Positions 4,991 to 63,299 of a stretch of 64,000 nt of DNA are shown piece after piece. Source of the stretch: Leptolyngbya sp. 'hensonii' (lineage in GTDB: Bacteria > Cyanobacteriota > Cyanobacteriia > GCF-001939115); the NCBI RefSeq assembly GCF_001939115.1, contig NZ_MQTZ01000002.1, forward strand, positions 130,904 to 194,903. Reading direction: 5' to 3'. A model generated the notes under the pieces. It had not been told where the DNA came from. It made no database searches and saw nothing but the letters and a program-made list of their open reading frames with translations. Within the stretch, counting starts at the first letter, position 1, and every line of letters starts with the position of its first letter. The position numbers were made by a program, and so were the translations under genes.

Positions 4991-7900
4991 CTGGATCTGA
5001 ACTGCTGCTGCTGCTCTCTGAGCGGGGCGTTGAGTTATGGGTGGAGGGCGATCGACTTTGTTTCCGGGCTCCCAAGGGGGCGCTGACCCCGGAACTACGA
5101 ACCCTGCTGGCCGAGCACAAGGAAGACCTGCTGACCCAGTTACGTCAGGCTCCTCCGATCGTGGCTCCGCTGTCCTACAACCAGCGATCCTTATGGTTCC
5201 TCTGGCAACTTACAGAGAATAGTGCGGCCTATAATGTGGCGTTCACGGCTGTGATTGCGACTGATGTCGATCCGGCAGCTCTAAAATCGGCATTTCAGGT
5301 GTTGACCGATCGCCATCCGGCCCTGCGGACCACCTTCACCACGGAAAATGGGGTTCCTATCCAGCAAATCCACCCACACCGGCAGGTGGACTTTGAGGGG
5401 GTGGATGCAACTGCTTGGGATGACCTGACCCTGCGCGATCGGGTCACGGCGGCTTATCGGCGTCCCTTTAATCTGGAAACAGGCCCGCTGTTGCGGGTGA
5501 CGCTGTTCTCCCAATCCCCCCAGCACCATGTCTTACTGCTGACGATACATCACATCGTGGCCGATGGCTGGTCCTTGTGGGTGTTGCTGGATGAACTGCG
5601 GGTGCTTTACCCCCTCCAGAGTACGGGGGCGTCCCATTCCCTCTCCCGGCTGACCACCACCTATCCCGATTATGTCCAGTGGCAGGCCGAGATCCTGGCC
5701 GATGCTCAGGGACAAAAACTGACCGACTACTGGCAGCAGCAGTTGGAGGGTGAGCTGCCCATTCTGGATCTACCGACCGATCGGACCCGTCCCGCCTTGC
5801 AAACCGATCGGGGCGGTTCCCATCCACTTGTCCTTGATCGGGAGTTGACCCAATCCTTAAAAGCCCTGGCCAAGGCGCAGGGCGTGACGCTGTATATGCT
5901 GCTGCTGGCGGCTTTCCAGACGTTGCTGCATCGCTATAGCCGTCAGGATGATTTGCTGGTCGGATCACCCGTTTTTGGCCGCAATAAACCAGAATTCGCC
6001 AATTTGGTAGGGGATTTCGTTAATATGCTGCCCCTGCGGGCAGATCTGTCTGGTAATCCGACCTTTACGGAGTTGCTGGTCCGGGTGCGTCAGATGGTTC
6101 TGGGTGCCCTGGAGCATCAGGACTATCCCTTTGCCCTTCTGGTCGAACAGATGGGAGGACAGCGCGATGCCAGCCGATCGCCCCTGTTTCAGGTCACGTT
6201 TGATTTGCAACGGCTGCAGTCCTTCGGAGAGTTGGCGGACCTGTTTGTTCCCGGTGCAACAACGGCTCGGGTAAATTTGGGGGGGCTGATCCTGGAACCG
6301 TTTCCCATGGCTCAACAGGAAGGTCAATTCGATCTGACCATGCAGTTAGTGGAGGTGAATGACACCTTACCTGGGGTCTTAAAGTACAACGCCGATCTGT
6401 TCGATGCCGCCACGATCGCCCGCATGATTGGCCATTTCCAGACCCTACTGCAGAGTCTCCTGGCCGATCCGCAACAGCGGCTGTCGGAGCTGCCCTTGCT
6501 GACCCCGGTTGAACGGCAGCAGTTGCTGGTGGAGTGGAATCCGGCGGGGATGGCTGCATCTCCGCATCAATGCCTGCATCATCTCTTTGAAGCCCAGGTG
6601 GCCCGAACCCCGGATGCGATCGCAGTCACCTGTGGAGATCAGCATCTCACTTATCAACAATTGAACCAGCGAGCGAATCAGGTCGCCGCCCATCTCCAGC
6701 ACCTGGGAGTGGGACCAGAATCCTTAGTGGGGCTTTGTGTCGATCGATCCCTGGATCTGGTAGTGGGGATTGTAGCGATTCTGAAGGCAGGGGGAGCCTA
6801 TGTTCCCCTGGATTTGATGTACCCGGCGGAACGGCTGGCCTACATTCTGCAGGATGCCCAGATCTCGATTCTGCTGACTCAGACTGCCCTGATTTCTCAG
6901 TTGCCGCCCCATGCCTTAACGATCGTCGATTTGGATGACCCAGCGGGAGTTCTGGCGGGTCAAAGCACGGTCAATCCGGAAAGTACCGTCACCCCAGAAA
7001 ATCTGGCTTATGTCATCTACACGTCCGGGTCCACGGGAACACCTAAAGGGGTGCTAGTCACCCATACCAATGGCTCTCGGCTCTTTTCGGCCACGGCGGA
7101 TTGGTACCAGTTCAACGCCCAGGATGTCTGGACCCTGTTCCATTCCTATGCCTTCGATTTTTCTGTTTGGGAACTGTGGGGGGCCTTACTGTATGGCGGA
7201 CGCCTGGTCGTGGTGCCTTTTGATATCAGTCGCGATGCTCAGGCTTTCTACCAGCTCCTGGGCCGGGAACGGGTGACGGTGCTCAATCAAACCCCTTCGG
7301 CATTCCGTCAGCTGATCCAGGCTGAACAGGCTTTGGGAACAGAACAGGCTTTGCATCTGCGCTATGTCATTTTTGGCGGAGAAGCCCTGGACCTGCAGAG
7401 TTTAAAGCCCTGGTTCGATCGCCATGGCGATCGTCAGCCCCAGTTGGTCAACATGTATGGCATCACTGAAACCACAGTGCATGTGACCTATCGGCCCCTG
7501 ACCAGGGCTGATCTGGACAATCCCACCAGTGGGATTGGGGTGCCCATTCCCGATCTGCAACTGTATGTCCTGGACCCCAGTCAACAACCGGTCCCGATCG
7601 GGGTTCCGGGAGAAATTTATGTGGGGGGGCAGGGGGTGGCCAGGGGATATCTCAACCGCCCTGAACTGACGGCTGAACGCTTCCTGCCCCACCCCTTTGT
7701 GACGACAACGGCTGCTCGACTTTATCGCTCTGGTGACCTGGCTCGCTATCGGGCCAACGGGGAACTGGAGTATCTGGGTCGCCTCGATCACCAGGTCAAA
7801 ATCCGGGGGTTCCGGATTGAACTGGGCGAGATTGAATCCCTGTTGATGCGGCATCCGGCGGTGGGCCAGGTCCTGGTTAAAGTCGATGATAATGGTCAGG

Positions 7901-10900
7901 ACGATAAACGGCTGGTGGCTTACGTTGTGCCGACTCCGGGCCAATCTTTGACAACTGAGGATCTCCGCCGTTCTTTGAAAGAACAGGTGCCAACCTATAT
8001 GGTCCCGGCAGCCTTTGTCCTACTGGAGGCTTTCCCCCTGACGGCTAATGGCAAAATTGACCAGCGGGCTTTACCAGCCCCTGATCTGGCCGATCGCCGC
8101 AGTCTGGCGGGGGTCTTTGTCCCCCCAACAACTCCGGCAGAAGTGGCTCTGGCTGGCATCTGGTCAGAAGTTCTGGGCATCGAACAGGTGGGGATCGAAG
8201 ATAACTTTTTTGACCTAGGAGGACATTCTCTGCTGGCGACCCAGGTCGTTTCACGCATTCGGGAGGAGTTCCAGATCGATCTTCCCCTGCGGGCCTTGTT
8301 TGAAGCACCCACGATTCATGGGTTGAGCCTGCTGCTTGAAACTCACCCTCAGGTCCAGGCCACCCAGGACCTCGATCCCATCCAGCCCATTCCCCGTGAT
8401 CAGCCAATTCCCCTGTCCTTTGCCCAGGAACGGCTCTGGTTCCTGGGGCAGTTGGAGGGAGAGAACTCTACTTACAACATCTCTGGAGCAATTCGGATTG
8501 AGGGCAGTCTTCAGATTTCCGTCTTGGAACAAGCCATCACTGAAATTGTCCGTCGGCATGAGGGGTTACGGACTGCTTTCCCGAGTGTGAATGGGGTGCC
8601 CGTTCAGCGGATTATCCCTCCTGCTCCTGTGGCCCTGGCCCTGATCAACCTGCAGGAATTGGGCGAACCGGAGCGATCGACAGAATTACAGCGTCTCTTT
8701 GCCCAGGAAACCCATCGCCTGTTTGATCTGGAGCAGGGGCCTTTGCTCCAACTCAGTCTGGTGCAACTGGAACTGGAATCTTCGGTCTTGCTCCTGACCA
8801 TGCACCACATCATTGCCGATGGCTGGTCGCTGGGGGTCTTTATACAGGAACTCTCTACCCTCTACACCGCGTTCATAAAGGGGCAACCTTCTCCTTTACC
8901 GGAACTGCCGATTCAATATGCGGATTTCACCATCTGGCAGCGGCAGTGGTTGCAGGGGGAAACGCTGGCAACCCAATTATCTTACTGGAAACAGCAACTG
9001 GCCTCAGCCCCGCCTTTGCTGGAGTTACCCACTGATCATCCTCGTCCCCCAGTGCAGTCTTTCCAGGGGCATACCGAGACGTTCATGCTGGATGCCCCCC
9101 TGACTCAGCAGTTACATCGCTTGAGCCAAACCATGGGGGCCACGCTTTATATGACGGTGCTAGCTGTCTATGTGACCCTACTGGCTCGCTACAGCGGTCA
9201 GGACGATATTTGTGTTGGGTCGCCGATCGCCAATCGGAATCGTCGGGAAACCCAATCCCTCATCGGTCTATTGCTGAATACCCTGGTGATGCGGGTGCGC
9301 CTGCAGGCGGATTTCTCCTTTGCTGATCTCCTGAACCAGGTTCGGAAAACAGCGCTGGATGCCTATGCCCATCAGGACGTGCCCTTTGAACAGCTGATTG
9401 AAACGTTGCACCCAGAGCGGAGTCTGAGTCATTCCCTCTGGTTTCAAGTCATGTTCATTGTGCAGAATATGCCGCTCCAGGCTCTGGAATTGCCTGGACT
9501 GACCCTGACGCCCCTGGATGCCCAGCACGAGGCGGCCAAGTTTGATCAGACCCTGACCCTGGTGGAGGTTGATCAGCAAATCAAATGCTATCTGGAATAC
9601 AACACTGACTTATTTGAACCGGCCACGATGCAGCGGCTGATTGGCCATTTCCAGACGTTATTGGCAGCGATCGTTGAGAATCCTCACCAGAAACTGGCCC
9701 AGTTGCCGGTGCTCACCCCTCCAGAACGGCAGCAACTGTTGCTGGACTGGAACCAGTCTGCGCTTGAGTTTCAGCCTCTTGGCACCTGTATGCATGCCCT
9801 GTTTGAGGCCCAGGTGGCCCGATCGCCCGCTGCGATCGCGGTCCAGTTCCTGGAGGTTCAACTGACCTATCAAGCGCTGAACGAGCGGGCCAACCAGCTA
9901 GCCCACCACCTGATCAGCCTGGGGGTTGGCCCCGACCAACTCGTTGGTATTTGTGTAGAACGCTCTCCGGACCTGATTGTGGCGGTGCTGGGTACCCTCA
10001 AAGCGGGGGGAGCTTATGTTCCGTTGGACCCTGCTTATCCGTCCGATCGGATCGGCTACATTCTGGACGATGCCCAGATTTCGGTGCTGCTGACCCAGGC
10101 ACCTCTGCGGTCCAAACTTCCCGCTCAGACCGCTCCTGTGGTCTGTCTGGATGCAGATTGGGCCACGATCGCCACCCAACCCACCCATAATCCCACCGGG
10201 ATTGTCACAACTGAGAACCTGGCCTATGTCATCTATACCTCTGGTTCCACTGGCAAACCCAAGGGGGTGATGATTGAGCATCAGGCTCTGGTTAACTTTA
10301 CCCAGGCGGCGCGGCAGGTCTACGGGTTCCACGATCGCGATCGGGTGCTGCAGTTTGCCTCCATCAGTTTTGATGCGGCGGCTGAGGAACTCTATCCCTG
10401 TCTGATTACAGGGGGAACCCTGGTGCTCCGCACGGATGAGATGATTCGTTCCGCCGCCACCTTCATCCAGCTCTGCCAGGATTGGCAACTTACCGTTCTG
10501 GATCTGCCTACAGCCTACTGGTTCCAACTGACGGCAGATCTGGAATCCCAGGGGCTGGTGCTACCGTCCTCTCTGCGTCTGGTCATCATTGGGGGAGAAC
10601 AGGTGCTGCCCAGTCAGGTGGCGGTATGGCAACAGCTCCAGGGTCACCTTCCGGCTCTGGTGAATACCTACGGTCCCACGGAAGCCACTATTGTGGCCAC
10701 GGTCTATGACATTCCGACAGGCTCTCAGTCCCTCCAGGCCATTCCCATCGGTCGCCCCCTGGAGCATGTTCAGACCTATGTGCTCGATCCGATGCTGCAA
10801 CCGGTGCCGATCGGCATCCCCGGAGAACTCTGTATCGGTGGCATGGCCCTGGCCCGTGGTTATCTGAACCAGCCCGATCTCAGCACTGAGAAATTTGTCC

Positions 10901-11649
10901 CCAACCCCTTCCAGGCTGGTCGTCTTTACCGCACAGGGGACCGGGTACGCTATCTCCCGGATGGCAACCTGGAGTTTCTCGGTCGGATTGATCAGCAGGT
11001 GAAGATTCGGGGATTCCGAATTGAGTTGGGTGAAATCGAAGCCATCCTCCTCCAGCAGCCGATCGTACAGCAGGCTGCTGTGGAAGTGTTTGGTGATCGC
11101 CCGGACGATCGACGGTTGGTGGCTTATCTGGTGCCAGAGCCTCAGCAGGAGTTCTCCCTGGATGCTGTGCGTCAGGCCTTGAAGGAGAAATTACCGGCTT
11201 ATATGCTGCCGTCAGCTTTTATGCAACTGGAGGCTATTCCCTTGACCCCCAATGGGAAGATCGATCGACGGGCCTTGCCGGTTCCTGTGCCGGGGGATTC
11301 TGCTCCAGCCAGTGGAACCTTTGTGCCACCAGGGACTCCGACCGAAGTGGCCCTGGTGAGGATTTGGGCTGATGTGCTGAAACTGGATCAGGTGAGTACC
11401 CAGGATGACTTCTTTGACCTGGGGGGGCATTCGCTCCTGGCTACCCAGGTGATTGCGCGGGTGCAAGGAACCTTTGGGGTTGAATTGCCCCTGCGGGCCC
11501 TGTTCGAAGCGAGCACGATTCAGAGTCTGGCGGGCTTAATTGTCACCCAACAGTTGGAGCAGGCAGATAACGATGAGCTGGAGCGTCTGCTGGCGGAGGT
11601 AGATGCCCTTTCCGATGAGGCTGTGCAGCGCATGCTGTCAGAGTCTTGA
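4987..11649 (+). CDS. Bimodular nonribosomal peptide synthetase (docking-C-A-PCP-C-A-PCP)
   Basis: Protein of 2220 aa whose ATG overlaps the PKS stop (ATGA), implying translational coupling. Residues 1-55 resemble a TubC-type N-terminal docking domain (LWVEGDRLCFRAPKGALT). The first C domain has HHIVADG near residue 188 and differs in sequence from the other two, as expected for one that accepts a polyketide. A1 (about 530-1030) reads D-F-W-N-I-G-M-V-H plus Lys when I align it by eye to GrsA, the known threonine code. PCP1 has LGGHSLLA, Ser about 1081. C2 has HHIIADG near 1273. A2 (about 1600-2090) reads D-A-E-D-I-G-T-I-V, which I cannot assign; the two acidic positions would suit a basic side chain (inference). 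PCP2 Ser is about 2149. The helical tail (ERLLAEVDALSDEAVQ) probably docks to the next NRPS. No epimerase, methyltransferase or cyclisation domain is seen. Confidence 0.95.
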   Translation: MTGSELLLLLSERGVELWVEGDRLCFRAPKGALTPELRTLLAEHKEDLLTQLRQAPPIVAPLSYNQRSLWFLWQLTENSAAYNVAFTAVIATDVDPAALKSAFQVLTDRHPALRTTFTTENGVPIQQIHPHRQVDFEGVDATAWDDLTLRDRVTAAYRRPFNLETGPLLRVTLFSQSPQHHVLLLTIHHIVADGWSLWVLLDELRVLYPLQSTGASHSLSRLTTTYPDYVQWQAEILADAQGQKLTDYWQQQLEGELPILDLPTDRTRPALQTDRGGSHPLVLDRELTQSLKALAKAQGVTLYMLLLAAFQTLLHRYSRQDDLLVGSPVFGRNKPEFANLVGDFVNMLPLRADLSGNPTFTELLVRVRQMVLGALEHQDYPFALLVEQMGGQRDASRSPLFQVTFDLQRLQSFGELADLFVPGATTARVNLGGLILEPFPMAQQEGQFDLTMQLVEVNDTLPGVLKYNADLFDAATIARMIGHFQTLLQSLLADPQQRLSELPLLTPVERQQLLVEWNPAGMAASPHQCLHHLFEAQVARTPDAIAVTCGDQHLTYQQLNQRANQVAAHLQHLGVGPESLVGLCVDRSLDLVVGIVAILKAGGAYVPLDLMYPAERLAYILQDAQISILLTQTALISQLPPHALTIVDLDDPAGVLAGQSTVNPESTVTPENLAYVIYTSGSTGTPKGVLVTHTNGSRLFSATADWYQFNAQDVWTLFHSYAFDFSVWELWGALLYGGRLVVVPFDISRDAQAFYQLLGRERVTVLNQTPSAFRQLIQAEQALGTEQALHLRYVIFGGEALDLQSLKPWFDRHGDRQPQLVNMYGITETTVHVTYRPLTRADLDNPTSGIGVPIPDLQLYVLDPSQQPVPIGVPGEIYVGGQGVARGYLNRPELTAERFLPHPFVTTTAARLYRSGDLARYRANGELEYLGRLDHQVKIRGFRIELGEIESLLMRHPAVGQVLVKVDDNGQDDKRLVAYVVPTPGQSLTTEDLRRSLKEQVPTYMVPAAFVLLEAFPLTANGKIDQRALPAPDLADRRSLAGVFVPPTTPAEVALAGIWSEVLGIEQVGIEDNFFDLGGHSLLATQVVSRIREEFQIDLPLRALFEAPTIHGLSLLLETHPQVQATQDLDPIQPIPRDQPIPLSFAQERLWFLGQLEGENSTYNISGAIRIEGSLQISVLEQAITEIVRRHEGLRTAFPSVNGVPVQRIIPPAPVALALINLQELGEPERSTELQRLFAQETHRLFDLEQGPLLQLSLVQLELESSVLLLTMHHIIADGWSLGVFIQELSTLYTAFIKGQPSPLPELPIQYADFTIWQRQWLQGETLATQLSYWKQQLASAPPLLELPTDHPRPPVQSFQGHTETFMLDAPLTQQLHRLSQTMGATLYMTVLAVYVTLLARYSGQDDICVGSPIANRNRRETQSLIGLLLNTLVMRVRLQADFSFADLLNQVRKTALDAYAHQDVPFEQLIETLHPERSLSHSLWFQVMFIVQNMPLQALELPGLTLTPLDAQHEAAKFDQTLTLVEVDQQIKCYLEYNTDLFEPATMQRLIGHFQTLLAAIVENPHQKLAQLPVLTPPERQQLLLDWNQSALEFQPLGTCMHALFEAQVARSPAAIAVQFLEVQLTYQALNERANQLAHHLISLGVGPDQLVGICVERSPDLIVAVLGTLKAGGAYVPLDPAYPSDRIGYILDDAQISVLLTQAPLRSKLPAQTAPVVCLDADWATIATQPTHNPTGIVTTENLAYVIYTSGSTGKPKGVMIEHQALVNFTQAARQVYGFHDRDRVLQFASISFDAAAEELYPCLITGGTLVLRTDEMIRSAATFIQLCQDWQLTVLDLPTAYWFQLTADLESQGLVLPSSLRLVIIGGEQVLPSQVAVWQQLQGHLPALVNTYGPTEATIVATVYDIPTGSQSLQAIPIGRPLEHVQTYVLDPMLQPVPIGIPGELCIGGMALARGYLNQPDLSTEKFVPNPFQAGRLYRTGDRVRYLPDGNLEFLGRIDQQVKIRGFRIELGEIEAILLQQPIVQQAAVEVFGDRPDDRRLVAYLVPEPQQEFSLDAVRQALKEKLPAYMLPSAFMQLEAIPLTPNGKIDRRALPVPVPGDSAPASGTFVPPGTPTEVALVRIWADVLKLDQVSTQDDFFDLGGHSLLATQVIARVQGTFGVELPLRALFEASTIQSLAGLIVTQQLEQADNDELERLLAEVDALSDEAVQRMLSES

Positions 11650-56105: not shown

Positions 56106-56979
56106 TTAATACAAACCATCCTCTTCATTAGGAAAAGCGGCAAATTCTGTATGAATGTTTTCATCATAATATTTCAAGCCAAGCTTGATCAGGCGCAAGA
56201 GAAATCGGTAATCATCGTGGCCAATTATTTGTCTTGACCATGAACTAGCCCTGTACAGTTGTGAATATCGGTTAAATATTTCAAACCCTTGATTCAGCAA
56301 TGTTTCAACCTCGCTATGGGTAAGTGGGTGAGAGCATCCCAGTTTTGCAAGGTTGCCCTCATCCCCCAGCCCCTTCTCCCAAAGAGGGAGAAGGGGAGCC
56401 AGATTCAAAGTCCCTCTCCCCTTCTGGGAGAGGGATTTAGGGAGAGGGCTACAAAAGTGGGATGCACTCAAGTGGGTCTTCTGAAAGTTGTGGAGCTTTT
56501 CCAAGAACAAACTTACTGCCTTTATGAGCAACAATGTTGTTGCGCCATATCCTTAGCTTCTCAACTAAAGGGTCAGCCTTAGCAAATTCAATATCTTTAT
56601 CTAATTGTGCTTGGTCTGGCACCCTATCACATTCTGCGAGGGAATTTACAAAAGCATTATCTTTTAAGCGTTCACGAAAATTCTGTTCATTGAAAAAATG
56701 AAGATTTTCTTTGATTGTCTCAAGTAGATTTACAAGATTTAAATTGTTGTTGCATTGGGTATCGAATACTCTGCATAGACGAATGAGCCAAGCGTCTTGC
56801 AGAGCATCGAAGGTTAGAACCCAGAAGGTATTTGACTGCGCGAACTCTTCGGGGTGCGATCGTAAAGCATCGTTCAAATCCCAATAGAGGCGATAGTAAA
56901 TATTTGCGTATACAATCTCTTGCTGAAGATTGTCAAGAAGCCTATTGAGTTCGTCCCCTGTTTTAACGTTGATTTTCAT
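56106..56979 (-). pseudogene. HEPN-like (AbiU2-type) gene interrupted by a small mobile element
   Basis: Two frames on the same strand (56979-56449 and 56534-56106) are halves of one gene. The 5' part is helical and ends with LRIWRNNIVAHKGSKFVLG, where RNNIVAH fits the RN-x4-H catalytic pattern of HEPN ribonucleases and of AbiU2-like abortive infection proteins. The second half resumes as PLTHSEVETLLNQGFEIFN. Removing 148 bp (element plus one target copy) joins the halves as SEDPLTHSEVE in a single 241-aa frame. The interrupted version truncates at CIPLL after 176 aa, but the catalytic motif is retained, so residual activity is possible. The HEPN assignment is by motif and medium confidence. 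Confidence 0.8.
56329..56469. mobile_element. MITE-like element with terminal inverted repeats and 7-bp target duplication
   Basis: About 141 bp with no coding capacity. Ends: TGAGAGCATCCCAGTTTTGC on the left and, reverse-complemented, TGAGTGCATCCCACTTTTGT on the right (three mismatches). Flanked by perfect direct repeats AAGTGGG at 56322-56328 and 56470-56476; the last base of the right end is shared with the repeat. The interior holds two hairpins, CCCCTTCTCCC/GGGAGAAGGGG and CCCTCTCCC/GGGAGAGGG, of a type widely dispersed in cyanobacteria. A transposase in trans must have moved it. Confidence 0.88.
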
Positions 56980-57931: not shown

Positions 57932-59383
57932 ATGAACCCTTGCTTGGCTTTTAATCTGCAGCACACACAGGACAGTCACGTGGATTTCACCATTCAAAAT
58001 GCCTTAGTTCCCTTTGATACTGGCTATCAGGAAGTTGATGTTCAAATTCAAGCAGGAAGAATTACCGCGATCGGCTCCTCTCTAACAGTCATAGGAACAG
58101 CGATCGAGGCCCGTAATAAGTTGCTGCTCCCCGGATTTGTCAATGCCCATACCCACTCCTCAGAAATGTGGCAGCGAGGGCTGGTCCATCCCTATCCCCT
58201 GGAACTATGGATTGGTGAGCTGTATGATTTTGTGCCCCTGGAACCAGAGCAGGTTTACCTGAGTGCCCTGGGTACGGCTGTGGAAACGTTGCTCACGGGT
58301 GGAACTACGGTTGTCGATCACCTGGTGCCCATTCCGGGGCTGGAAATGGAGACAGTTGCTGCAGTTGAGCGAGCCTATCGAGAAGTTGGAATTCGCGCTT
58401 TTGTCGCCCCTCTGCTGCAGGATGAATCTCTGCCAGCCAGCCTGCCCTCTGGGGGCTATGAGGTTAGCCATCCTCCCTATATTCGGAATACGGCAACCAC
58501 GCTTGAGTTAATCCAGGCTGTGGTGGATCAGTTCCATCGCCCAGCAGAAGGTATCTTTGTCGCTACAGCTCCAACGGGGATGCAACTCTGTTCCGATGCC
58601 CTGTTTGAGGGATTTGGAGCCTTGAGCGATCGCTATAACCTCTGTCGCCATACCCACTTGCTGGAAACGAAAGCCCAACAGATGTTGGCCCAGGAAAAAT
58701 ATGGTTGCAGTGCGGTGGAGCATCTCAAGCACCTGAATTTTCTCGGCCCCCGGACCTCTCTGGCCCACTGTGTCTGGCTCACCGATCGGGATATTGAGAT
58801 TCTGGCTGAGACCCAATCTACGGTCGTGCACAATCCCCTCAGCAATCTGCGTCTCGGAAGTGGGATTGCTCCAGTGCTGAAGTATTTACAGGCTGGGGTT
58901 AATGTTTCCTTTGGTTGTGATGGATCCGCCAGTAATGATTCTCAGGATCTGCTGGAAGCGATCAAAATTGGCTCTATTCTGCACAATGTTACTGATCTGG
59001 ACTACCGCCACTGGATTTCCCCCCGACAGGCCGTGGAAATGGCAGCGCTAGGGGGAGCGAAAGGGCTGGGCCTGGCGGATCAGATCGGGACGGTGGAAGT
59101 GGGGAAACAGGCGGATCTGGTGCTGTATGATCTGAAGAATTTGTCTCTGCTGCCCCGGACTGATCCGATCGGGCTGCTGGTCCTGGGGCGTCCTACCCAG
59201 GTGGTAGACAGTGTTTGGGTCAGGGGGAATCGGGTGGTTGCAGAGGGGCAGGTCACCACAGTGGATGTGGGGCAACTGCAACAACAACTGTTTGAGCGCA
59301 GCCAGTGGACCTACAATCGACAATCATCCTCGGTCCCTCAGATGGAAGCCCACTATCGGGCGGTCATGGGCTTGCCGGAGTAG
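57932..59383 (+). CDS. TRZ/ATZ-family amidohydrolase
   Basis: 483 aa metal-dependent amidohydrolase. Metal and catalytic residues: [19 protein letters not shown] (HxH), [25 protein letters not shown] and [15 protein letters not shown]. The pattern fits the group with atrazine chlorohydrolase, guanine deaminase and S-adenosylhomocysteine/methylthioadenosine deaminases. A deaminase or amidase on a purine- or triazine-like ring is expected, but the exact substrate is unresolved. The divergent isochorismatase-fold hydrolase hints at a short degradation pathway for a nitrogen-rich compound. Its 3' end overlaps the FHA gene's 3' end by 31 bp. Confidence 0.9.
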
Positions 59384-61167
59384 GGGGTTGTTTCTTCGGA
59401 AGGTTGCCCGATCGGATCGAACTGAAAAGTGAGACTGAAAGCGCCCAGAAAAATTAAATCCCCTCCCCTGAGGGGCTGACGTTGGAGTACCTGGAGAGTG
59501 TTCACAAACAATCCATTGGTGCTACCCAGGTCAATCAGATAGAATCCCTGACTGGGAACATATTGAATCGCAGCATGGCTACGGGAAACCTGGGGATCGT
59601 GGATGGGAATATCGGCTTTGTGATGACGACCAATCACCCAGTTTAAATCGGGCTTCACCAAGGTTCTGAATTCACCCTTGGGTAGATTTGTCTCCAGATA
59701 GGCTTGCTGTTCCTGGATTACACCCCGAATGTACCAGTCCACGGATTCAGTGGCTTCCACATAGGATAGGGTTTCATCCTGGGACAGGATCTCATCCTCG
59801 GGCTGGCTGTTGACAATTTTGATCAAAACCTGATTTGTTTGCTGCTCGTTTTCCAGGGCTTTAGCCTGGGAAGCAGACAAAAACTGATGGTCCTGATCCC
59901 CCAGATTTTTGCCAGCAGCCCAGGCCAGGGCATTCTGTAGGACCATCCCCTGGAGTAAAAATTCGTCCCCTCTGGTTTCAAGCCAGGTCTTTAAGGCCGC
60001 TCCATAGGGTCGCAGGTTGGCCAGAGCTTCATCTACCCATTCCAGATTGAAAACCGCTGCATAGATCCGGTTATAGACCTGAAGTTTGCCCTGGCTAGTG
60101 ACGACCAGACCCGACAGGCGCAGTTCCGTTTGTTCCGTACTGTCGTCTGCTGGAACTTCCCCTTGCTCCAGAATCCGGCGGTACAGCCCCAACAGTTGGT
60201 TGGTCCGCTGTTCACTGCGCAGGATTCGATCGCGGATGGTGCGGAGGTGCTCTGGTTCATCCTGCGACTCCCAGTTGGTAATCAGGTAAGTCTGGACAAT
60301 GCTGGTCACGAATTGCTTGGAGGCGCTAGATTTTGGGGATGTAAAAGAGGGGGTTGCCTTCTCTCCCCGGCGTTTCTGCTCGATCGCCTGAGCCACTAAC
60401 TTACAGAGTTTCTGGGTCAGAAAGGGTTGGCCACCTGTCCAGAGAAGGATTTCAGCCATAGTTGCAGTAGGGTTCTCAACCTGATTGACCAGACCTTGAG
60501 CCAGGGGATTGGCTTCTTCCAGACGAAACCCGGTGAGTTCGATCGCCCGTCCAATATTAAAGGGGGTTCGACTCTTGTCCTGAATCAGATTTGAGGGGGT
60601 AGCGACCCCAAATAGGGCAAAGGTGAGGCGACGATATCCGGGCTTATCAGCGCGACTGTTATAGCAGGAGCGAATCACTGCAAAAAAGTCGTCCTTGAAG
60701 CCCAGTCTCAGGACGCTATCAATCTCATCGACAAAAATCACAATCTTGCGATCGGGAATTCGAGTCAGGATTTCTCCTCGGAGAATTTCGCTGAAGCGAT
60801 GGACAGGAGACAGGAAGTCATAGCGTATCCACCAGGCATTAATATCGACCTGATCCAGCAAATCCAGGCCACTCAGGAGGGTATAGGTCAAACCGGCATA
60901 CCATTGATTGGGTGTAATATCCTGGCTGCCTACAGCGGTCAGGTCAATCACGGCGCAGGCAATTCCGTCTGCCTGCAGGCGCTGCATGGTTTGTACCCGC
61001 AGGCTGGATTTTCCCATCTGGCGCGAATTCAAAATGTAGCAAAATTCCCCAGCCTTTAATCCCTCATACAGGTCCCGATCTGCCCGTCGGGTGACATAAG
61101 TCGGAGCGTCCAGCGGTAAACTTCCCCCCACCTGATAATCGTAGGGTCTGTCCATATCCCCACTCAT
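59353..61167 (-). CDS. AAA-like ATPase with C-terminal FHA domain
   Basis: 604 aa. N-terminal AAA-like (AAA_35-type) ATPase: Walker A in [12 protein letters not shown] (about residues 47-58), Walker B in [14 protein letters not shown], winged region after [14 protein letters not shown] linker, then an FHA phosphothreonine-binding domain near the end ([39 protein letters not shown]). It may sense a phosphorylated partner and change ATPase state. ATG overlaps the stop of the cyclase-TIR-ATPase gene (ATGA), so the two are one translational unit. Both proteins share the same kind of ATPase module. Confidence 0.9.
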
Positions 61168-63299
61168 AACATCTCTCCGGCTGACTTGGCGGGCAGGTTT
61201 TCCAGGCGGGGAGAGAAGTATTGGCGATAGAGATGGCAGCGCGCTCTGGCTTCATGGCCCTGCAGTCGAACCAGCCCCATACTGTGGAGTTTAAAGCCTG
61301 GAATTGCCTCCAGTTGGGTCGGGCCATCGGTAGAAAAGACCTGGCGGGCTGCTGCTGCCAGTTCCGGATGTTGTTGTAAATTCCACAAATGTCGCCGTAG
61401 ATGATCCCCGTAGAGACCGGTTTCACCGGCAGCGGTGGCGACCAGTTGCTCCAGGGTGGTTTCCTGGCGGGCGATCGCATAGAGGGCCAGCCGGACCAGG
61501 TAGGGATGACCTCCCACCAGATGCATCAACCCCTGCACGTCTTCCCAAGTCCAGGTCAGGTGGTGACGGTGGGCCAGAGCCAGAACCTGCTCGGTGTCGA
61601 ACTCTGCCAGCTCGATCGGTAGCCCGACATTGAAGGGAGACTGGTTGATGTCGATTGGAATGTAGACTTCGGTGGAATGGACCACAATCAGGCGCAACTT
61701 TTTCCAGATCTCCCGGTTTTTGGCTTCTTCATGCCAGGCTCGCAGGAGACCAAAAAAGTCCCCAGCCAGTTCGGGATGGAGAAAAATGCGGTCCACTTCA
61801 TCCAGACCCAGCACCAGAGGAGCCTGGGACTGAGGCAACAGATAATTCTCAAAGTAGGCTTTGCAGGCCACTTTGCTACCGAAGACGCGATTCCATTTTT
61901 CGGAAAGTAGATCGGGCAGATTCAGCTCCAGGGCGATGTTGGCACAGAACCACTGCAGAAATCGGTCCAGATCAGCCAGGATTTTACTGTCTGCCAGTTG
62001 AAAGTTAAGGGGAATCGTGCGGTAGCCCTGATCTGCGGCCTGTTGAAGAATGCGGACCATGAGGGAGGTTTTACCCATCTGGCGAGGAGCCCGAATTCGA
62101 ACCAGCGCTCCGGCCCGGGTAATTTCCTGGTAACAACGGATTTCGATCGGGGGCCGTTCCATATAGAAGGGAGATGCCAGATTCACCTGACCAGTGGGCA
62201 ATTCCGGCTCTGCGGCGGGGGTGGGCCGATCGCTGGCTGGGGATGGTGAAGGGAGGCTGGGCTGGCCTGAAACGGGTTGGGTTGGCCCGTTTGTGATCAG
62301 CTGCAGGACTTCCGCCAAGAGAGCGGGGGTATCGGCATCGGATTGCCATTCTCGCTGTTGAATTTGATCGAGATAATGGTGCAGATCGTAGGTCAGGGGC
62401 ATGCCCAGGGGGAAATTTACCCGAATTGGCAAAATTACAGGTTTACCTTCGGGGTGCTGCTCCTGCAAGTCCTTGGCCCGCCGTACTTCCTCCATCACCA
62501 TTTCGCTGGTGGCCGATCGGGCAGAGAGGAGCAGGAGCAGATAATCAGACTGACGCAGCTCCGCCTCAATTCGCTGGGGCCAGTTCTCTCCCAGCCGGAT
62601 ACTCTCTCCCGCCAGAAATGCCTCATGACCAGCTTCTGTCAAGGCTGCATAAAACTGTTGGGCTAGACCAAAGTCAGGGTTCTGGCTGCGGTAGCTGATA
62701 AAAATTTTCCTGGAAACGGTTTCGATCGGGTAGGGCGGGGCAATTTCATACACCGGTACGGGTTCAGGAATGCCTTTGAGCTGTCGTCGCCCCATAAACA
62801 TTGCGGGTCGGGGCAACCGCCCCTTGACAACCTCATACACCGTCTGGGAGAGGCAAATCCCCCGGGCTGGGGCTTCTCGCTGCAGTCGAGCAGCCAGGTT
62901 AACGCCGCTGCCCATGACATCGCTGCCTGTGAACTCCACATCTCCCAGGTGAATCCCGATGCGGTGGTGCAAAATATCGCGGATCGGGAGGTTAAGAGCC
63001 ATTTCGGCGAAGGCCAACTGGATTTCGATCGCACAGGAAACGGCTTTTTCTGCACTCACAAAGTACATCAGCAGGCCATCCCCCAGGGATTTCAGAACCT
63101 GCCCTTCAAAGCGATCGCACAGTTCGCCCATGCGCTGAAAATCTCGTTCAATCAGGGCCAATGCATGCTGCTCATCGGCCAGCATCTTGGCTGTGAAAGC
63201 TTCCACATCCGTAAAAACGATCGCCGCCAGAACAATGGAGCCTCTGAGATTCAGGGGGCGGACCACATTATCTATGGGATTCATGGGCGGATTTCCCAT
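61164..63299 (-). CDS. Class III nucleotidyl cyclase - TIR - AAA-like ATPase fusion
   Basis: 711 aa. Residues about 20-190 are a class III cyclase catalytic domain with all key residues: metal Asp31 (FTDVEAFT) and Asp74 (KSLGDG), Lys70 and Asp127 (SDVMG) suggesting ATP as substrate, Asn134 and Arg138 (VNLAARLQ). Residues about 198-335 are a TIR domain ([20 protein letters not shown]); Glu271 in SEMVMEEV aligns with the NADase Glu of TIR enzymes. After a Pro/Ser linker comes an AAA-like ATPase: Walker [12 protein letters not shown] (about 403-413), Walker [13 protein letters not shown]. No transmembrane helix. First gene of a two-gene operon with the ATPase-FHA protein. A cAMP-linked TIR/ATPase switch is inferred; the biological role is unknown. 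Confidence 0.9.

Follow-up and report, generated by a model that had tools for sequence, protein, structure and literature searches.

A gene of the cyanobacterium Leptolyngbya sp. 'hensonii' encodes, in one chain of 711 aa, a class III nucleotide cyclase followed by a TIR domain and an AAA_35 ATPase, and the gene that overlaps it encodes a second AAA_35 protein with a C-terminal FHA domain. The proposal made here, at about even confidence, is that a STAND switch is split over these two genes and that the 711-aa protein forms its output subunit; an ATP-dependent assembly set off by the sensing partner would then activate both the TIR domain and the cyclase. The broader proposal, that this is a new two-gene STAND system of filamentous cyanobacteria in which one assembly activates cyclase and TIR and in which the cyclase is a swappable cartridge, is offered more tentatively. 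The window analysed is a stretch of 64,000 nucleotides of contig NZ_MQTZ01000002.1, and its relevant features are given in Table 1.

Table 1. Features of the two-gene locus and its surroundings (window positions)
Feature	Position	Strand	Basis or remark
Cyclase-TIR-AAA_35 gene P0001, 711 aa, output-side class (cl1)	61164..63299	-	No internal stop
Class III nucleotide cyclase domain, residues 22-188	62736..63236	-	Pfam, PDB relatives, residues
TIR domain, residues 197-318	62346..62711	-	Pfam; profile matches to Cat1, AbTIR, SARM1
Glu271 codon, predicted NADase catalytic glutamate	62487..62489	-	Conservation and AbTIR catalytic Glu column
AAA_35, predicted STAND-type NTPase with winged helix, residues 368-696	61212..62198	-	Pfam, AF2, Foldseek
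Walker A APRQMGKTS, residues 404-412	62064..62090	-	GK kept in 94/95 cl1 domains
Walker B LVLGLDE, residues 495-501	61797..61817	-	D500 kept in 94/95 cl1 domains
Partner gene, 604 aa, AAA_35 sensor-side class (cl2) with C-terminal FHA	59353..61167	-	
Partner AAA_35, residues 10-392	59992..61140	-	E 8e-26, Walker motifs
Partner FHA, residues 510-575	59443..59640	-	Pfam E 6.5e-19
HEPN_AbiU2-type gene	56449..56979	-	E 5e-22; about 2.4 kb past partner gene

The 711-aa protein and its active sites

A preliminary description of this DNA had read a single 711-aa frame joining a cyclase, a TIR domain and an AAA-like ATPase, and this reading holds; the minus strand, the overlapping AAA_35-FHA gene and two further copies in the source genome are additions to it. 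The frame is open throughout and is matched above the curated Pfam cut-offs by Guanylate_cyc (residues 26-159, E 4e-11), TIR_2 (199-318, E 5e-19) and AAA_35 (368-696, E 3e-149); translation may instead start from an internal ATG (codon 6), which is the start of many homologues. The residues named there (D31, K70, D74, D127, N134, R138 and E271) were found at the numbers given, both Walker motifs are present, and profile searches across genomes for the domains and for the whole architecture, which had been suggested as a check, upheld the homology and found the catalytic residues kept. Structure prediction of the fusion, the other suggested check, gave a divided answer: the AlphaFold2 model of the whole chain (mean pLDDT 81.8, pTM 0.49) has separate domains that are well folded in an arrangement that is unsure. 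All structures were predicted as single chains; for one prediction, plasmid-derived rows were left out of the alignment. No sensor domain was recognised by Pfam in the chain, where AAA_35 ends at residue 696 of 711.

The cyclase active-site sextet DKDDNR is complete and consists of the metal-binding aspartates D31 and D74, the purine-site residues K70 and D127 and the transition-state residues N134 and R138. Relatives in the PDB are 3mr7 (sequence E 1e-22; structural TM 0.86-0.89 of the target), Ma1120 and Rv1900c, and the domain has the homologous CHD fold of class III cyclases. The Lys/Asp purine pair predicts ATP as the substrate; PDB titles list a 'KDA to EGY' mutant of Ma1120, in which the same residues were altered by others. 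Wherever one cyclase alone is fused to an output-class AAA_35 domain the sextet is complete, with the exception of an Argonema copy (L042:3325-5427, plus strand) that has K->A and D->Q changes in the purine site and keeps the metal and transition-state residues, possibly reflecting a changed substrate.

Two genes of the source genome carry cyclases in tandem. One encodes cyclase-cyclase-TIR-AAA_35 (contig C42, L011:3396-6032, plus strand) and the other two cyclases followed by pentapeptide repeats (contig C65, L017:1320-2978, minus strand), and in trees both tandems go back to one shared duplication. The sextets read DKDDNC in copy 1 and AKYDNR in copy 2 of L011, and DADELK and AKSDNR in L017. 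In both proteins the metal Asp pair survives in copy 1 only and the full Lys/Asp/Asn/Arg set in copy 2 only; the Arg of copy 1 is gone from both, with further losses in L017. The active site of class III cyclases lies at the dimer interface, and in mammalian transmembrane adenylyl cyclases the C1 and C2 halves share one active site by the same partition of residues. The tandem proteins match this reciprocal division, although, unlike C1/C2, they are soluble, bacterial and fused to TIR-AAA_35 or to pentapeptide repeats. Such reciprocal loss would follow from selection on a single composite active site, and the tandem copies are the best sequence evidence for selection of a working dimer-interface site. 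Together with the conserved residues of the single cyclases, the decay argues for genuine catalysis.

The TIR domain likewise has both the fold and the catalytic glutamate of TIR NADases, among which Cat1, AbTIR and SARM1 are matched by profile. E271 is the second Glu of an 'MEE' motif and aligns with the AbTIR catalytic Glu column in the profile alignment, in contrast to the adjoining E270, which is not conserved and falls outside that column. The glutamate is kept in all 16 cyclase-bearing members and in 56 of the 63 TIR domains of the family; with the glutamate lost from the other seven, some relatives may have a TIR without enzymatic activity. Retention of the glutamate and presence of a cyclase were not significantly associated (Fisher p 0.18).

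The 'AAA-like ATPase' of the preliminary description stands as a P-loop switch and is sharpened to a STAND-type one by fold matches. Predicted alone, the AAA_35 domain reaches pLDDT 92.4 and pTM 0.89. Its closest Foldseek matches are PABY2304 and SSO1545 (with Orc2 between them), followed by Avs3, the STAND-TPR protein 6mfv, Roq1 and RPP1; Avs4 is also among the STAND folds matched, Orc/Cdc6-type AAA+ ATPases are among the best matches besides STAND proteins, and RPP1 aligns with the full 711-aa model over 561 columns. A GxP-type motif with conserved G597 and P599 and a C-terminal helix-strand wing in the model complete the set of STAND features (Walker A and B, GxP-type motif, winged helix, structural match to known STANDs). 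The STAND-like fold and the conserved Walker and G-x-P motifs thus support the prediction that AAA_35 is a STAND-type switch. No paper on PF14516 or on the cyclase-TIR-AAA_35 architecture was found in the literature open to search, in agreement with the earlier remark that this arrangement was not known as a characterised system.

Two classes of AAA_35 protein

The stop codon TGA of the 711-aa gene overlaps the ATG of the partner gene by 4 nt (ATGA), and the AAA_35 domain of the partner is the more divergent of the two. Upstream of the pair lies a desaturase gene; downstream, beyond the partner, are an amidohydrolase gene on the opposite strand, an isochorismatase gene and the HEPN_AbiU2-type gene, whose product is possibly abortive-infection or toxin-like. 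Apart from this last gene the neighbours are of housekeeping type, which speaks against a defence island, and none was seen around the 711-aa gene.

Home-built HMMs divide AAA_35 proteins into an output class, with a variable N-terminus and a C-terminal AAA_35 domain, and a sensor class. Output-class N-termini with a TIR domain include cyclase-TIR (15, tandem counted), kinase-TIR (12), CHAT-TIR (8), trypsin-TIR (5) and TIR with no extra domain or an unrecognised one (20). A kinase without TIR is found in nine, and the remaining 23 TIR-less members have mostly a short N-terminal segment, often of about 110 aa, which by eye looks like a DNA-binding helix-turn-helix and has no Pfam match. The C-termini of the sensor class carry WD40, GAF/PAS, FHA, GUN4, GUN4 with peptidoglycan-binding repeats, or WD40 with an amidase. 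In two loci (L062:7023-11006 and L066:6996-11075) an N-terminal dCache-HAMP-PAS, which is a classical membrane sensor module, is joined to AAA_35 in place of a histidine kinase, and the gene adjoins a short AAA_35 gene of the output class whose N-terminus is HTH-like.

Genes of the two classes recur side by side. Of the 29 TIR-bearing output genes for which no less than 1.5 kb of sequence is available downstream, 18 are followed on the same strand, within 1.5 kb, by a gene of the sensor class, in many cases with an overlap of 1-4 nt, against a rough chance expectation of 0.003 per gene. No sensor-class gene was found within 3.6-6 kb of the L038, L040 and L041 copies, and the sensor-class genes of the copy on contig C6 are convergent with it; these are tandem AAA_35-WD40 genes (L012:2792-6277 and 7506-10994) of 1161 and 1162 aa, 58% identical to each other. 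Sensor-class genes are present in all 12 genomes tested. A 904-aa protein (L100:346-3060, plus strand) fuses sensor-class AAA_35, cyclase and output-class AAA_35 in this order. A Nostoc HK-01 plasmid (L128) has a CHAT-TIR-AAA_35 and AAA_35-GUN4 pair with a second AAA_35-GUN4 gene nearby, in surroundings that include restriction-modification and caspase-FGE genes, and on a different Nostoc plasmid Trypco1 adjoins a trypsin-TIR-AAA_35 gene.

The position of the cyclase varies as well, since it is C-terminal in a TIR-AAA_35-cyclase protein (L023) and in a CHAT-AAA_35-cyclase protein (L119). On the AAA_35 tree the cyclase state changed at least eight times, and a single origin of cyclase-TIR-AAA_35 was rejected (AU p 8e-5), with the caveat that the C6 copy forms a long branch. 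The varied positions, the state changes and the rejected monophyly point to a shuffled cartridge, and as judged from domain content the cyclase slot is swappable, being filled in relatives by proteases, CHAT or kinases. Separate cyclase genes also occur near AAA_35 loci (L013, L042, L048), at about chance level, and were dropped as evidence; at L013, on contig C19 of the source genome, the gene immediately upstream of a kinase-AAA_35 / AAA_35-GAF-PAS pair is an FHA-GAF-cyclase gene (8000-9622, minus strand).

Fifteen relatives have the same N-terminal order, three of them in the source genome and one carrying two cyclases. The two further copies of the source genome are the tandem-cyclase gene of C42 and the C6 gene, whose product shows 44% identity along its length. 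Other full-length members come from Oscillatoriales USR001, Limnofasciculus, Coleofasciculus, UBA11153, Argonema, Oscillatoria and several other genomes, and the hosts are filamentous cyanobacteria. In a sample taken evenly over the phylum the cyclase-TIR fusion was found in 4 of 386 genomes, the source genome counted. Of 146 genomes sampled for AAA_35, 49 have it, against none of 14 controls. A tblastn search of phages with the cyclase-TIR half returned irrelevant cyclase-only matches, and the same search of plasmids returned no record covering at least 80% of the query; rhizobial plasmid matches cover the cyclase and then run on weakly, and the one looked at more closely, L126, matched the cyclase and not the TIR. 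By these searches the fusion is found only in cyanobacterial records.

Proposed mechanism and rival readings

In the proposed split switch the partner would sense the trigger through its FHA domain, which makes a phosphothreonine protein signal the probable trigger, and would then hetero-oligomerise with the 711-aa protein. The TIR and cyclase domains each need more than one chain, and assembly would turn both on: ATP-dependent co-assembly would bring the TIR domains together for NAD+ cleavage, and the same assembly would pair the cyclase domains for conversion of ATP to cAMP. With both enzymes on, one event would yield an NAD-derived signal or loss of NAD together with a cAMP signal. The likely setting, in filamentous cyanobacteria, is a response to stress or to invaders. 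A conflict role of AAA_35 modules is suggested by the plasmid-borne Trypco1, the restriction-modification and caspase neighbours, the filamentous hosts and the domain vocabulary shared with conflict systems.

The protein could also be an ordinary regulated adenylyl cyclase in the service of light, carbon or motility signalling, with TIR and AAA_35 only assembling and gating the enzyme and no role in death or defence. Signalling by cAMP is common in cyanobacteria, the neighbours are of housekeeping type in the window and at L038-L041, some family TIRs have lost the catalytic glutamate, and the Cache-HAMP-PAS, GAF and GUN4 partners resemble environmental sensing. Such a reading is nevertheless considered unlikely, though it is the most probable of the rivals. 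Every cyclase-bearing member keeps the TIR glutamate, and the cyclase is swapped in relatives while the TIR stays, so that the fixed output of the subfamily looks to be the TIR and not the cyclase. It is very improbable that the cyclase, the TIR or both are scaffolds devoid of catalysis; the presence of motifs does not equal activity, and the Argonema copy is without the residues equivalent to K70 and D127, but almost every member has complete motifs, and the reciprocal decay seen in the tandem copies fits selection for catalysis.

The preliminary description had taken the protein for a self-contained sensor, messenger and effector in which the state of the ATPase would gate the cyclase, the NADase or both; this would make the adjoining gene incidental. 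Full-length relatives that have no adjoining sensor-class gene (L038, L040, L041) agree with this, but it is improbable and the word 'self-contained' is probably wrong: the chain has no recognisable sensor domain, the AAA_35-FHA gene overlaps it by 4 nt, the pairing recurs, the sensor domains sit on proteins of the second class, which every genome tested encodes, and L100 fuses the two classes. The least probable reading is a Pycsar-like one, in which the messenger made by the cyclase would activate the fused TIR in cis. Cyclase and TIR do share one chain and PycC profiles match the cyclase, but marginally (E about 1e-5 to 2e-5); moreover, the Lys/Asp purine pair suggests ATP and not CTP or UTP, Pfam finds no cNMP-binding domain between cyclase and TIR, and TIR-AAA_35 relatives without any cyclase exist.

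Sensing and output are placed on two proteins in two-component systems, while STAND immune receptors are normally one chain. If the split switch is real, a widespread STAND family with exchangeable cartridges on both sides would be a general cyanobacterial signalling device, of more interest than the single protein, and its cyclase-TIR version would join TIR immunity and cAMP signalling within a single molecule. The 711-aa protein is small enough for direct biochemistry.

Comparison with known systems

The comparison with Pycsar made in the preliminary description survives as an analogy only. A class III-type cyclase is used with a TIR in both cases, but the 711-aa protein unites the two in one chain, its residues are of adenylyl type, its PycC match is weak and it has no cNMP-sensing domain; it was not assigned to Pycsar. 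Neither was it assigned to Thoeris, whose ThsB-type profiles match the TIR part only, with scores below or far from full-length ones; the SLOG domain of ThsA was found by Pfam in neither the 711-aa nor the partner gene. Avs3, Avs4 and the resistosomes of plant TIR-NLRs have an N-terminal effector followed by a STAND domain, as the 711-aa protein does, and their folds match. The differences are an extra cyclase, a split partner and a chain without C-terminal sensor repeats, and for want of such repeats the protein was not placed among Avs proteins.

The VMAP / MoxR-vWA ternary conflict systems, which are enriched in multicellular bacteria (Kaur et al. 2020, PMC7159879), fill their slots from the same vocabulary of trypsin with Trypco1, caspase-like domains, cNMP cyclase, kinase, TIR, FHA and GUN4. 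AAA_35 modules share the enrichment in multicellular bacteria, with an AAA_35 pair in place of MoxR, vWA and VMAP; none of these three was found among the neighbouring genes scanned, and membership was rejected. Also close to the present case are the STANDs of Kaur et al. 2021 (PMC8195603), which include an MNS clade and a Npun2340/2341 family, and AAA_35 is suspected to be the latter family. These are likewise cyanobacterial P-loop switches with variable effector and sensor domains, whereas the system described here distributes sensor and output over two AAA_35 proteins and places two enzymes on the output chain.
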